From contig NZ_CP084469.1 in NCBI RefSeq assembly GCF_020405205.1, forward strand, positions 1,922,001 through 1,986,000: a stretch of DNA of 64,000 bases, in the 5' to 3' direction. Made by a program: the position numbers and the translations under genes. Shown here piece by piece: positions 10,486 through 54,067 of this stretch; the stretch's first letter is position 1; every line of letters starts with the position of its first letter. Source of the DNA: Natrinema salinisoli. Lineage in GTDB: Archaea; Halobacteriota; Halobacteria; Halobacteriales; Natrialbaceae. The notes under the pieces are model-generated. The model searched no databases. It worked only from the letters and a program-made list of their open reading frames with translations, and had not been told where the DNA came from.

Positions 10486-11115
10486 ATGTTCGACGACCGA
10501 ACCGACGCCGGCGAACGGCTCGCGGCGGCCCTCGAGGACCGCGACCTCGATGTCGACGTCGTCCTCGGAATCCCTCGTGGGGCGCTACCCGTCGCGCGGC
10601 CGGTTGCCGACGCCCTCGATGCCCACCTCGACGTCGTCGTCGCGCGCAAGCTGGGCGCGCCGCAGAACCCCGAAGTGGCCCTGGGCGCGGTCGCCAGCGA
10701 CGGCAGCGTCTGGTACAACGACGACCTGATCGACCGGCTGAACGTCTCCGACGACTACCTCGCGGACGTCCGGGCCGAGGAGGCCGACAACGCACGCGAG
10801 AAGGCGGATCGATACCGCGAGGGGGACGGACTGCCCGACCTGCAGGGAAAGCGGGTCCTCGTCGTCGACGACGGCGTCGCCACCGGTGCGACGGCGACCG
10901 CCTGTCTCCGGCAGGTACGGGACACCGGGGCCGAGTGGGTCGGCCTGGCCGTGCCCGTCGGCTCGCCGCGAGCCGTCGAGGACCTCGAGCGCGAGGCCGA
11001 CGAGGTGATCGCCCTTCGGACGCCCGCCGAATTCCGCGCCGTGGGGCAGTTCTACCACCAGTTCGGACAGGTGAGCGACGAGGAAGCGCTCGAGTACCTC
11101 GCTCGAGAGTCGTGA
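10486..11115 (+). CDS. Phosphoribosyltransferase family protein
   Basis: Encodes 209 residues. The PRPP-binding loop is VLVVDDGVATGAT (about residues 125-137), and the N-terminal VVLGIPRGALPVARPVA with VVVARKLGAPQNPE is typical of the predicted phosphoribosyltransferases grouped near ComF and erythromycin-esterase-associated proteins. The nucleobase substrate cannot be read from sequence. It is cytoplasmic, monocistronic, and its 3' end faces the dispersed repeat at 11174. Confidence 0.85.
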   Translation: MFDDRTDAGERLAAALEDRDLDVDVVLGIPRGALPVARPVADALDAHLDVVVARKLGAPQNPEVALGAVASDGSVWYNDDLIDRLNVSDDYLADVRAEEADNAREKADRYREGDGLPDLQGKRVLVVDDGVATGATATACLRQVRDTGAEWVGLAVPVGSPRAVEDLEREADEVIALRTPAEFRAVGQFYHQFGQVSDEEALEYLARES

Positions 11116-11271
11116 AGCGGGATCAGTAGTCGAACCGGACGAACGAGGGAATCCACGCTAACCGGAACCCCCAACGTGCGGTGGCACGCGCTGTCGGCCA
11201 GCCGAGCGAGAGCGAGGGTGGCCGTCGATCATGCGCGAGGGATGAGCGAGGGAAGAATGACTGAGCGTTAG

Positions 11272-11292
11272 CGCGGAACCTTCGGTTCCGCG
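11272..11292. repeat. Perfect hairpin, 9-bp stem
   Basis: Arm cgcggaacc (11272-11280), loop ttc, arm ggttccgcg (11284-11292). It lies in the variable part of dispersed repeat copy A. Confidence 0.75.
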
Positions 11293-11302
11293 AACCATCC
11301 GA

Positions 11303-11321
11303 ACGGGCGCGCAGCGCCCGT
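11303..11321. repeat. Perfect hairpin, 8-bp stem
   Basis: Arm acgggcgc (11303-11310), loop gca, arm gcgcccgt (11314-11321). It lies 10 nt after the first hairpin within dispersed repeat copy A; the pair could act as a bidirectional 3'-end structure between convergent genes. Confidence 0.75.
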
Positions 11322-11461
11322 GAGGAGAACTCGGCTGGGGAGGGCGTGGCCGTTCCCCGTTGCCACGGTAGCAGGACACATCGTGTCCGGGTGCCCTCAT
11401 CGGGCCGGGGTAACCGTGAGACGGGAACAGTGCTCCATCACGGTTCGACGCATCTACTCGC

Positions 11462-12787
11462 TTACGGCCAGAGCCCGCGCATCTCGTGTGCTTCAGCGAT
11501 TCGATCGAGCGCGACCGCGTACGCGGCGTCGCGCCACGTCACGTCCCGCCGCTCGACCTCGTCTCTCAGCGCGGTCCAGGCCGTCACCATTTCGGACTCG
11601 AGTTCCTCGTTGACCCGCTCGAGGGACCACGCGCGGCGGTTGATGTCCTGGAGCCACTCGAAGTAGCTGACCGTGACGCCGCCGGCGTTCGCGAGGATGT
11701 CCGGGATCACGTGGATGCCGCGCTCCTCGAGGATGGTGTCGGCGGCGAAGGTCGTCGGCCCGTTCGCGCCTTCGACGACGATGTCGGCCCGCACGGTGTC
11801 GGCGTTGTCCGCGGTGATGACGTTGCCGACGGCGGCCGGAACGAGGACGTCGACGTCGAGCTCGAGAAGTTCCTCGTTCGAGATCCGGCGCGGTCCGTCG
11901 GGTCCCCCATCGAGGGTGGCCGCGAACTGCGTGACGGCTTCCGGCTCCTCGTCGTGGGAAGGGATCGCCCCGACGTCGATTCCGTTCGGGTCGTAGACGG
12001 CCCCGTTGACGTCGCTGACAGCGACGATCGTCGCGCCCCACGCCTCGAGCAAGCGGGCGGCGTTCGCGCCGACGCTACCGAAGCCCTGGACTGCGACGGT
12101 CGTCTCGGACAGCGGGTACTCGTAGTACTCGCAGGTCTCCCGGGTGACGATGGCGACGCTCCGGCCGGGCGCTTCTTCGCGGCCGTAGCTGCCGCCGACG
12201 ACCGGCGGCTTGCCGGTGACGACGCCGGGGATGGTCTCGCCTTCCTGCATGCTGTAGGCGTCCATCAGCCAGGCCATCGTTTGCGGGTCGGTGCCCATGT
12301 CGGGCGCCGGAATGTCCGTGTTCGGGCCGATTACGTCGCGGATCTCCTGCGTGAACCGACGCGTGAGTCGTTCTTTCTCGTCGTCGCTCAGCGACTTGGG
12401 GTCGACGACGATGCCGCCTTTCGCGCCGCCGAAGGGGAGATCCATCACCGCACACTTCCAGGTCATCCACATCGACAGGCCGACGCACTCGTCGCGGGTC
12501 ACGTCGGGGTGGTAGCGCAGTCCGCCCTTGTAGGGCCCGCGGACGCTGTCGTGGTGGGCCCGGTAGCCGGTGAAGACCTCGACCGACCCGTCGTCGCGCT
12601 CGAGCGGAACCGTCACTTCGTGGACCGCCGTGGGATGCTGGAGGCGCTCGAGGGCGGCGTCGTCGACGTCCAACTGCGCGGCGACGCGCTCGAGCTGTCG
12701 GCGCGCGGTCTCGAGGGCGGTTTCGGGGTCGGTCGATCCGGCCGTCGCTTCTCGGGTCGGTGGTGAAGAACGGTCCTGAGAGGACAT
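11462..12787 (-). CDS. gdhB: Glutamate dehydrogenase (Glu/Leu/Phe/Val family)
   Basis: Encodes 441 residues, normal length for hexameric GDH. It interconverts glutamate with 2-oxoglutarate plus ammonium using NAD(P). Motifs: substrate-binding [13 protein letters not shown] (about 83-95), catalytic-lysine region [16 protein letters not shown], and a Rossmann motif [14 protein letters not shown] (about 223-236). The first ~30 residues are Ser/Thr/Asp-rich and vary in this family. It lies 2 nt downstream of a zinc-ribbon mini-gene and is probably co-transcribed with it. Cofactor preference cannot be decided by eye. With glnA at 45 kb it gives the cell both ammonium-assimilation routes. Confidence 0.95.
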
Positions 12788-52600: not shown

Positions 52601-52782
52601 CGTTCCCGGAGGAAGGTGGAAGTGAACAGGTCGAACGAATCGAGGGAGTCGTCGTCGAGAGCCGACACCCTCCCGCTCGACGAAGGACCAACAGTCGACG
52701 ATTCCGCGATTTTTCGTGTCAAACACTCTTGAGACACAATTCAGGAAGCAGAGCCCCCGTATTACTCCCGACCGATCAAGCG

Positions 52783-52929
52783 ACGTGCGGTGGCGCGCGC
52801 TGACGGCTGGCCGAACGAGAGTGAGGCCAGCCGACGATACTGCGCGAGGGATGAGCGAGGGAGCGGAGCGACCGAGCGAATCGGCTGGGGAGGGTGTGGA
52901 AATTCCCTGTTGCCATGATAGCAGGATAC
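52783..52929. repeat. Dispersed non-coding repeat, copy B
   Basis: This 147-nt block matches copy A at 11174-11379 in order and direction: opening acgtgcggtggc, core gcgagggatgagcgaggga (52844-52862), tail tcggctggggaggg (52881-52894) and end tagcagga. The middle is only 18 nt here, so the hairpin insert of copy A is absent. It ends 4 nt before the tandem repeat and sits between the rpa promoter and the end of the AbrB-PhoU gene. Confidence 0.75.
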
Positions 52930-52933
52930 TCCG

Positions 52934-53042
52934 CCCCACACAGTCCCAGTAGAACCAGCCCCACACAGTCCCAGTAGAACCAGCCCCACACAGTCCCAGT
53001 AGAACCAGCCCCACACAGTCCCAGTAGAACCAGCCTCACACA
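52934..53042. repeat. 25-bp tandem repeat, four perfect copies plus a partial
   Basis: Units at 52934-52958, 52959-52983, 52984-53008 and 53009-53033 are identical; 53034-53042 is a partial fifth unit with one change. Each unit begins ccccacacag and ends agaaccag. There are no spacers, so it is a minisatellite, not a CRISPR. The unit length is not a multiple of three, so open frames through it are accidental. It follows directly on dispersed repeat copy B. Confidence 0.9.
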
Positions 53043-53071: not shown

Positions 53072-54067
53072 TCAGGGCCGCGGTGCGGCCTTCTGCAGCG
53101 CCGTCTCCGCGATGTTGCCGCCGTAGTCCGCGCTCCGCGACAGCGAGTCGACGATCAGCCCCAGCGACTGGGCCTGCACCGGCTCGAGGTCCCGAAGCAT
53201 ATCGTCGATCTGGCGCGTGTGCTCGTCGATCTCGAGGACGGCTTCGTGGGCGTCGTGCCCGAGCCGGTTCGCTTTATCCGGTTCCTCGGCGAACAACGCG
53301 TCCATCGACTTCTCGAGGACGGTGGCGGCATCGGCCTGGAGTTCCTCGAGCGCCTCGGCGACGGGCTCGGGAATTTTCTCGAGTTTCAGCGCGATGTTGC
53401 TGATCTTGGTCGCGTGGTCGGCGACGCGCTCGAGTTGCCGGGCGCTCGAGTGGAAATCGAAACAGTCCTCCCGAGGGACGCCGAGCTCTTCGGCGGCGCG
53501 GGGCGATCGGAGCGTCGCCCGGAAGATCCGGGAGACGACCAGCCAGAGCCGGTCGACGTCGTCGTCCCGCTCGATCACGTCGCGAGCGATGTCGTCGTCG
53601 TCCTCGATCAGCGCCCGGACGGCGTCCTCGAGCATCGACTGGGCGATCAACCGCATACGCGTGACGGCGTTGACGATCGACAGCTCCGAGGAATCGAGGA
53701 GATCCTGAATGACGACGCTGTCGGTCGTCTCCTCGAGCACCTCGACGCCGACCAGTCCCTGCGTCGCGTCGCGGATCGCCCGGCGCTGGTCGGTCGTGAT
53801 CCGGCCCGCCTCGAGTCGGATGATGTCGAAGCCGCTGACGTACATCGTCATCACCGCTCGCGTCAGCCGTTCGTCCTCGAGGTTCGAGATGTCGAGGGTG
53901 CCCTCCTGTCGTTTCGTCTCGCTCTGGGGCGTCAGGAGGAGGGTGTCGTCCTCGGGATAGAATTCGACGGTCGTACCGGCGCTGACGTCGTTTTCGGTCG
54001 CCCACGTCTTCGGCAGCGAGACGGTGTACGTCGACCCACCCGTCACCTGCACCTTGCGCGTCTCCAT
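53072..54067 (-). CDS. AbrB-PhoU phosphate regulator
   Basis: Encodes 331 residues. The N-terminal SpoVT/AbrB-type DNA-binding domain (METRKVQVTGGSTYTVSLPK, TWATENDVSAGTTVEFYPED, about 1-50) is fused to a PhoU-like part of two helical bundles (about 100-325; ARQLERVADHATKISNIAL with the metal-binding E-x2-D pattern). Such fusions are the usual haloarchaeal regulators of phosphate uptake. It is divergent from pstS (275 nt between starts) and has a TATA box 28 nt upstream inside a perfect inverted repeat, so autoregulation is likely. Confidence 0.88.
   Translation of the reverse strand: METRKVQVTGGSTYTVSLPKTWATENDVSAGTTVEFYPEDDTLLLTPQSETKRQEGTLDISNLEDERLTRAVMTMYVSGFDIIRLEAGRITTDQRRAIRDATQGLVGVEVLEETTDSVVIQDLLDSSELSIVNAVTRMRLIAQSMLEDAVRALIEDDDDIARDVIERDDDVDRLWLVVSRIFRATLRSPRAAEELGVPREDCFDFHSSARQLERVADHATKISNIALKLEKIPEPVAEALEELQADAATVLEKSMDALFAEEPDKANRLGHDAHEAVLEIDEHTRQIDDMLRDLEPVQAQSLGLIVDSLSRSADYGGNIAETALQKAAPRP

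Follow-up and report, generated by a model that had tools for sequence, protein, structure and literature searches.

The 64,000-nt window analysed here (positions 1922001-1986000 of a 4.19-Mb chromosome, in a 4.70-Mb genome of three contigs) carries two copies of a repeat that is dispersed between genes in this genome and in many other haloarchaea. We consider it probably a dispersed, non-autonomous structured intergenic repeat of the ERIC/BOX/REP kind, in which the folded strand would be the recognised unit. The family is apparently undescribed so far; Rfam matched nothing in the window at the gathering threshold and nothing at the repeat when six loci were run with a relaxed one, and we found no description in the open literature searched. 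If this explanation is right, a whole archaeal order carries an unnamed structured repeat family that is absent from Rfam and fills up to about 100 places per genome in one genus, and it would serve as an archaeal, Y1/RAYT-independent model for asking why ERIC/BOX-type repeats spread and persist. The repeat would also matter for genome annotation and strain typing.

The two window copies and their predicted fold

An earlier sequence-only reading had described two blocks with the same succession of pieces in the same direction and with middles of 77 and 18 nt, all of which we confirm, positions included; their first 80 nt are 85% identical (listed as family D15). The identical core that it put at 19 nt is present but measures 22 nt (TGCGCGAGGGATGAGCGAGGGA, 11232-11253 and 52841-52862), the identical 14-nt tail start TCGGCTGGGGAGGG is as described (11331-11344 and 52881-52894), and the block ends were roughly right, lying about 3 nt off the units delimited by our covariance model. 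The similarity between the blocks is far beyond chance because a blastn search with either of them retrieves dozens of other copies from this genome, at E values down to 1e-45 and 1e-52 (about 40 other places for copy 1). The pair is thus neither all there is of the repeat nor a short GC-rich word, and blastn and the covariance model bear out the dispersed repeat at about 50 places.

Copy 1 (11177-11378, + strand; covariance model match G000:C1:1933177-1933378, 76.6 bits) is a long form with a module in its middle, located between a phosphoribosyltransferase-like gene (+, ending at 11115) and a glutamate dehydrogenase-like gene (-, ending at 11462). Copy 2 (52786-52928, + strand; G000:C1:1974786-1974928, 148.8 bits, E 9e-35) is a short form between an RPA-like gene (-, starting at about 52572) and a PhoU-like gene (-, 53072-54067); all four gene names are read from translations. 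Directly 3' of copy 2, at 52936-53035, a 25-nt unit, CCCCACACAGTCCCAGTAGAACCAG, is repeated head to tail about four times. This array seems to have arisen by tandem amplification from the 3' extension of the repeat and is apparently lacking in the closest relative, G248.

The conserved unit of about 142 nt, with weakly conserved flanks, is predicted to fold on one strand. Its core starts sharply at TGCGGTGGC, ends near GCAGGAC and comprises, from 5' to 3', helix P1 enclosing P2, an AGG, helix P3, the tail motif TCGGYTGGGGAGGRYGTGG and hairpin P4. P1 pairs CGCGCG with TGCGCG, and P2 inside it is 9-11 bp long and often shows a tandem G·A step and a loop of GNRA type. P3 combines GAT/ATC with 2-bp steps that alternate with invariant tandem G·A pairs, and both tandem steps are kept in 18 of 18 copies. 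P4 is GTGGC/GCCAC, although its 3' arm could instead pair with a 5' GTGG and so close the whole element. The motif GGGGAGG is invariant and predicted to be unpaired. An H-type pseudoknot in the tail (GGGGA/TTCCC) was considered and set aside because TTCCC is missing in several copies.

In copy 1, fold and column covariation place P2 at 11193-11226, with a tandem G·A step and the GNRA-type loop sequence GAGA, and the 22-nt core supplies the 3' arm of P1 and the 5' arm of P3. The variable middle holds a plug-in module of two predicted hairpins (11262-11329, boundaries drawn by eye; arms 11272-11280/11284-11292 and 11303-11310/11314-11321), which is also present in other copies, for example at 3604288 (+), 1761505 (-) and 3045121 (+). 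The near-invariant tail motif follows at 11331-11349 and the predicted P4 at 11346-11366, the alternative partner of its 3' arm being the 5' end at 11181-11184. In copy 2, P1 (52794-52799/52841-52846) encloses P2 (52804-52812/52825-52833), both drawn from fold and covariation; P3 spans 52850-52882, with GAT/ATC, 2-bp steps and, between them, tandem G·A / A·G pairs joining 52853-52854 to 52878-52879 and 52857-52858 to 52874-52875, and the tail motif lies at 52881-52899.

Across the family, hairpin modules are inserted in P3, in P2 or in the stretch that links P1 to P3, which is why the middle varies. Where relatives carry many copies, weaker conservation extends about 50 nt both upstream and downstream, so that the complete unit would be nearer 250 nt, with fuzzy outer ends. 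The 5' extension is weak in copy 1 (11140-11176, limits approximate; family consensus ACGTnTCaCTCCagACCgAtCAACCGgCG) and weakly conserved in copy 2 (GTATTACTCCCGACCGATCAAGCGACG, 52755-52785). Words that mark the repeat ends are TGCGGTGG or TGCGGTGGCGC at the start and CACGATAGCAGGAC or CACGATAGCAGGACRCTC at the end.

Compensatory changes strongly support this single-strand fold. In A2, an alignment of 18 short full copies made by sequence, two-sided changes occur in 19 of 31 predicted pairs. Under the structure given above the 18 copies have 95% of cells paired and 17 pairs with two-sided changes; none of 500 shuffled controls was as good, and slid controls fell to 18-46%. Among 90 copies from many genera (Natrinema, Haloterrigena, Natronococcus, Natronorubrum, Halopiger, Haladaptatus, Halogranum, Halorussus, Halococcus and others), two-sided changes are found in 24 of 28 pairs with 93% of cells paired, in an alignment that was fitted to the model and hence leans towards it. 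G·T outnumbers A·C by about 6:1 in the 90 copies (200 against 33 cells) and by 23 to 4 in the unfitted A2, which indicates that the + strand is the folding strand, as expected for RNA or for one exposed DNA strand. Variation in the tail hairpin consists almost wholly of wobble pairs.

Copy number, distribution and site differences

The covariance model R1, built from A2, gives 57 matches at E below 0.01. Some long copies match twice, so that these matches amount to about 50 distinct places, all of them on the 4.19-Mb main chromosome. The same search of the remaining 0.5 Mb, on the other contigs, found no repeat, and by our own arithmetic the chance of finding none of 50 copies there (11% of the genome) is roughly 0.003. 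By home-made gene calling, none of the 44 copies with callable neighbours is contained in a predicted gene, and the neighbouring genes are convergent at 14, divergent at 9 and co-directional at 21. Orientations are thus mixed, with no fixed gene class, position or orientation of the kind seen for a riboswitch or cis-regulatory RNA. A protein-coding reading is rejected, as no predicted gene covers any copy and neither the module inserts nor the abundant compensatory changes look like coding sequence. A minority of copies stand in inverted neighbour pairs, five being observed against 0.15-0.23 expected, all of them tail-to-tail. Read from coordinates, the inverted pairs seen in loci of Haladaptatus (L183, L186, L241, L258) and Halobium (L209) are head-to-head; those in Natrinema, this genome included, are tail-to-tail.

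Of 242 haloarchaeal genomes sampled, 139 gave R1 matches, and these cover 45 of 74 genera; the near-invariant tail motif also served as a class-wide search pattern. When 295 genomes were drawn from across the phylum, all 19 positives belonged to the haloarchaeal order and none fell outside it. Among plasmids, six of 72,556 records matched, and phage records gave no match. Strict filters and few candidates per genome make these large-sample counts lower bounds. Two IMG/VR viral matches to the tail word (15.5 bits) are not the repeat. Two distant single copies in another family, L370 (G016 C17:458190) and L371 (G051 C69:444907), keep the core and the TCGGYTGGGGAGG motif and continue with GGGTGGGACTGAAA...GACGCAAG in place of the GTTGCCACGATAGCAGGAC tail; they may belong to a sister repeat family. 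In Haladaptatus and Halolamina, too, the word GTGGGACTGAAAG stands at the end of copies or after them. A related long form at L125, L127 and L300 has the same head followed by GCGAACTGCGAGGCCTGAACGAAGTGACGGCCTCG, and L125 and L127 lack the normal core after it.

Within the genus, single genomes have between 0 and 103 matches (29 genomes, E below 1e-6), with 0 in G242, G246, G096 and G118, 6 in G247, 51 in G248, 98 in G249 and 103 in G252. Occupancy of single sites varies as well. At the site of window copy 1 the repeat is present with one extra module in G248, short in G255 and reduced to a head fragment in G247 and G192. Apart from these, several genomes have an empty short intergenic gap there, and G004, G092, G107, G091 and G025 lack the repeat. 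When the flanks of 12 sites were compared, G248 was filled wherever the site could be judged, G247 lacked the repeat at four sites filled here (3817144, 3109169, 4024738 and 4174104) and G143 at three (4024738, 4174104 and 1890172). Over 400 kb of G249 and G252, which are about 92% identical, six sites are shared and four are occupied in one genome alone. Most of the shared sites differ between the two genomes in the variant of P2, of P3 or of the entire core, pointing to the exchange of whole helices or modules among copies. At the unoccupied sites the missing stretch also takes 60-150 bp of flank, so that insertion and deletion look alike and the differences could be deletions. No clean target-site duplication was obtained from the 12 sites in four congeners or from 16 copies in the 400 kb of G249/G252, because the intergenic flanks are too diverged.

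At seven orthologous sites shared with G248 the repeat is 91% identical, compared with 80% and 77% for the adjacent 60 nt; more distant, largely coding flanks are 88-95% identical. In this small sample, the higher identity of the repeat than of the adjacent DNA suggests either that the repeat is under selection or that copies undergo conversion with one another.

Explanations for the dispersed repeat

In the explanation that we consider probable, one strand folds into a fixed scaffold of the P1/P2 hairpin, the tandem-G·A helix P3 and the tail hairpin P4, and extra hairpin modules enter it at a few allowed points, which produces constant ends and a variable centre. The results above show the fold, its strand, the dispersal, the variation in number and site, and the exchange of variants. 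The folded single strand, the presumed substrate, may be read-through RNA from a neighbour or DNA exposed in replication. A trans-acting factor would handle it, so that copies spread in trans and are lost over time, and copies would also trade pieces by recombination. The five tail-to-tail pairs recall BIMEs. Several points count against this explanation: no exact insertion junction, target duplication, terminal inverted repeat or autonomous partner was found among the sites and loci compared; the repeat is better conserved than the adjacent DNA, which a purely selfish relic would not need; and rarity on plasmids and absence from phage records are unusual for an actively moving element.

The main rival, possible but tentative, is that the repeat is a multi-copy functional RNA, either its own transcript or part of an mRNA, serving as a protein-binding scaffold, a stability or processing element, or a regulatory small RNA. 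The compensatory changes in 24 of 28 pairs, the excess of G·U over A·C, the invariant tandem G·A pairs, the GNRA-type loops, the invariant unpaired GGGGAGG and the greater conservation at the seven shared sites would all suit such a role, but a range of 0-103 matches per genome, with zero in four congeneric genomes, and the lack of a constant gene neighbour or orientation do not. Single copies of different species also lie mostly at unrelated loci, and no TATA-like promoter at a fixed upstream distance was obvious by eye. The same scatter of single copies (in G243, G244, G245, G250 and genus g30) led us to reject an ancestral single-copy RNA gene; by eye, the flank of the G244 copy resembles the sequence upstream of the RPA-like gene next to window copy 2. 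A more specific proposal, rather unlikely in our judgement, is a new kind of modular transcribed haloarchaeal RNA at as many as about 100 loci, with plug-in hairpins and stacked tandem G·A helices on a constant scaffold, that would have spread via its folded RNA rather than via DNA ends recognised by an ordinary transposase.

A PATE or MITE would have arisen by deletion from an insertion sequence, of the IS200/IS605 type or another, and would be moved by that element's transposase. PATEs are a haloarchaeal precedent: they are transposase-free repeats that have palindromes close to their ends and lack target duplications (PMC3119063). The present repeat resembles them in its terminal hairpins, and no target duplication is evident, yet it carries several internal helices under covariation, beyond terminal palindromes. 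The core ends TGCGGTGGC... and ...CGATAGCAGGAC show no terminal inverted repeat relation, and the loci scanned contained no autonomous version with a transposase gene between repeat head and tail; in L314, the one long interrupted copy, the insertion seems to be unrelated. Repeat copy number and Y1 transposase genes do not go together: in present gene content PF01797 (Y1) is absent from G252, G255, G248, G107 and G028 (43-103 matches), including genomes with 103, 86 and 51 matches, and five Y1 matches occur in G096, which has zero repeats. Absence from several of the richest genomes and presence in a copy-free one disfavour an IS200/IS605 or RAYT route, and dependence on a Y1/RAYT transposase is not supported; a PATE or MITE origin as a whole appears doubtful.

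A 3'-end or transcription-termination element is very improbable: the repeat usually starts 20-120 nt past the stop codon where the upstream gene points towards it, and tail-to-tail pairs lie between genes, but only 23 of 44 copies have a same-direction gene upstream, 9 lie between divergent genes, and many orthologous gene ends in congeners carry no repeat.

The interpretation offered by the sequence-only reading is therefore partly supported. Its suggestion of a small or structured RNA gains a conserved fold, for which compensatory changes speak strongly, with one strand favoured. Of its MITE-like option, mobility is supported by the dispersal, the 0-103 copies among congeneric species and the presence or absence at single sites, while core terminal inverted repeats, a demonstrated target duplication and Y1 genes that follow copy number are lacking. 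Its 3'-end option is not supported, given intergenic copies in every orientation.

Relation to known repeat families

ERIC is an intergenic repeat of about 130 nt that folds as a long single strand, takes up insertions at preferred points and has no known partner transposase. Its copy number varies between related species (PMC10969869). The haloarchaeal repeat is like ERIC in size class, intergenic position, single-strand fold, preferred insertion points, variable copy number and the failure to find a partner transposase; it differs in its archaeal host, its strong covariation and its several separate helices, where ERIC is one imperfect palindrome. We know of no sequence relation between the two. 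BOX of Streptococcus pneumoniae has constant end modules, a variable number of centre modules and a stem-loop fold, and occurs in many intergenic copies. All of these are shared by the haloarchaeal repeat, but sequence and host are different, and its modules are diverse hairpins at several points instead of one repeated boxB.

With REP/BIME/REPIN repeats it has in common the many intergenic copies, the single-strand hairpins and the inverted neighbour pairs (five tail-to-tail here). Its unit of 142-250 nt is multi-helical, compared with 20-40 nt for REP, and its copy number, unlike the REPIN/RAYT case, is not seen to go with the presence of a Y1/RAYT-type transposase. Closer in host are the PATEs and SMRs of Haloquadratum walsbyi, transposase-free dispersed repeats with hundreds of copies per genome and no target duplications; PATEs have near-terminal palindromes and derive from IS605-type ends, and SMRs have inverted terminal repeats (PMC3119063). 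The present repeat is likewise a transposase-free dispersed haloarchaeal repeat with no evident target duplication, although neither PATEs nor SMRs are described in PMC3119063 as a covarying multi-helix structure. With its many intergenic copies, conserved single-strand fold, and copy number and sites that vary between relatives, the family resembles ERIC, BOX, REP/BIME, PATEs and SMRs in kind, and is larger, multi-helical and strongly covarying.
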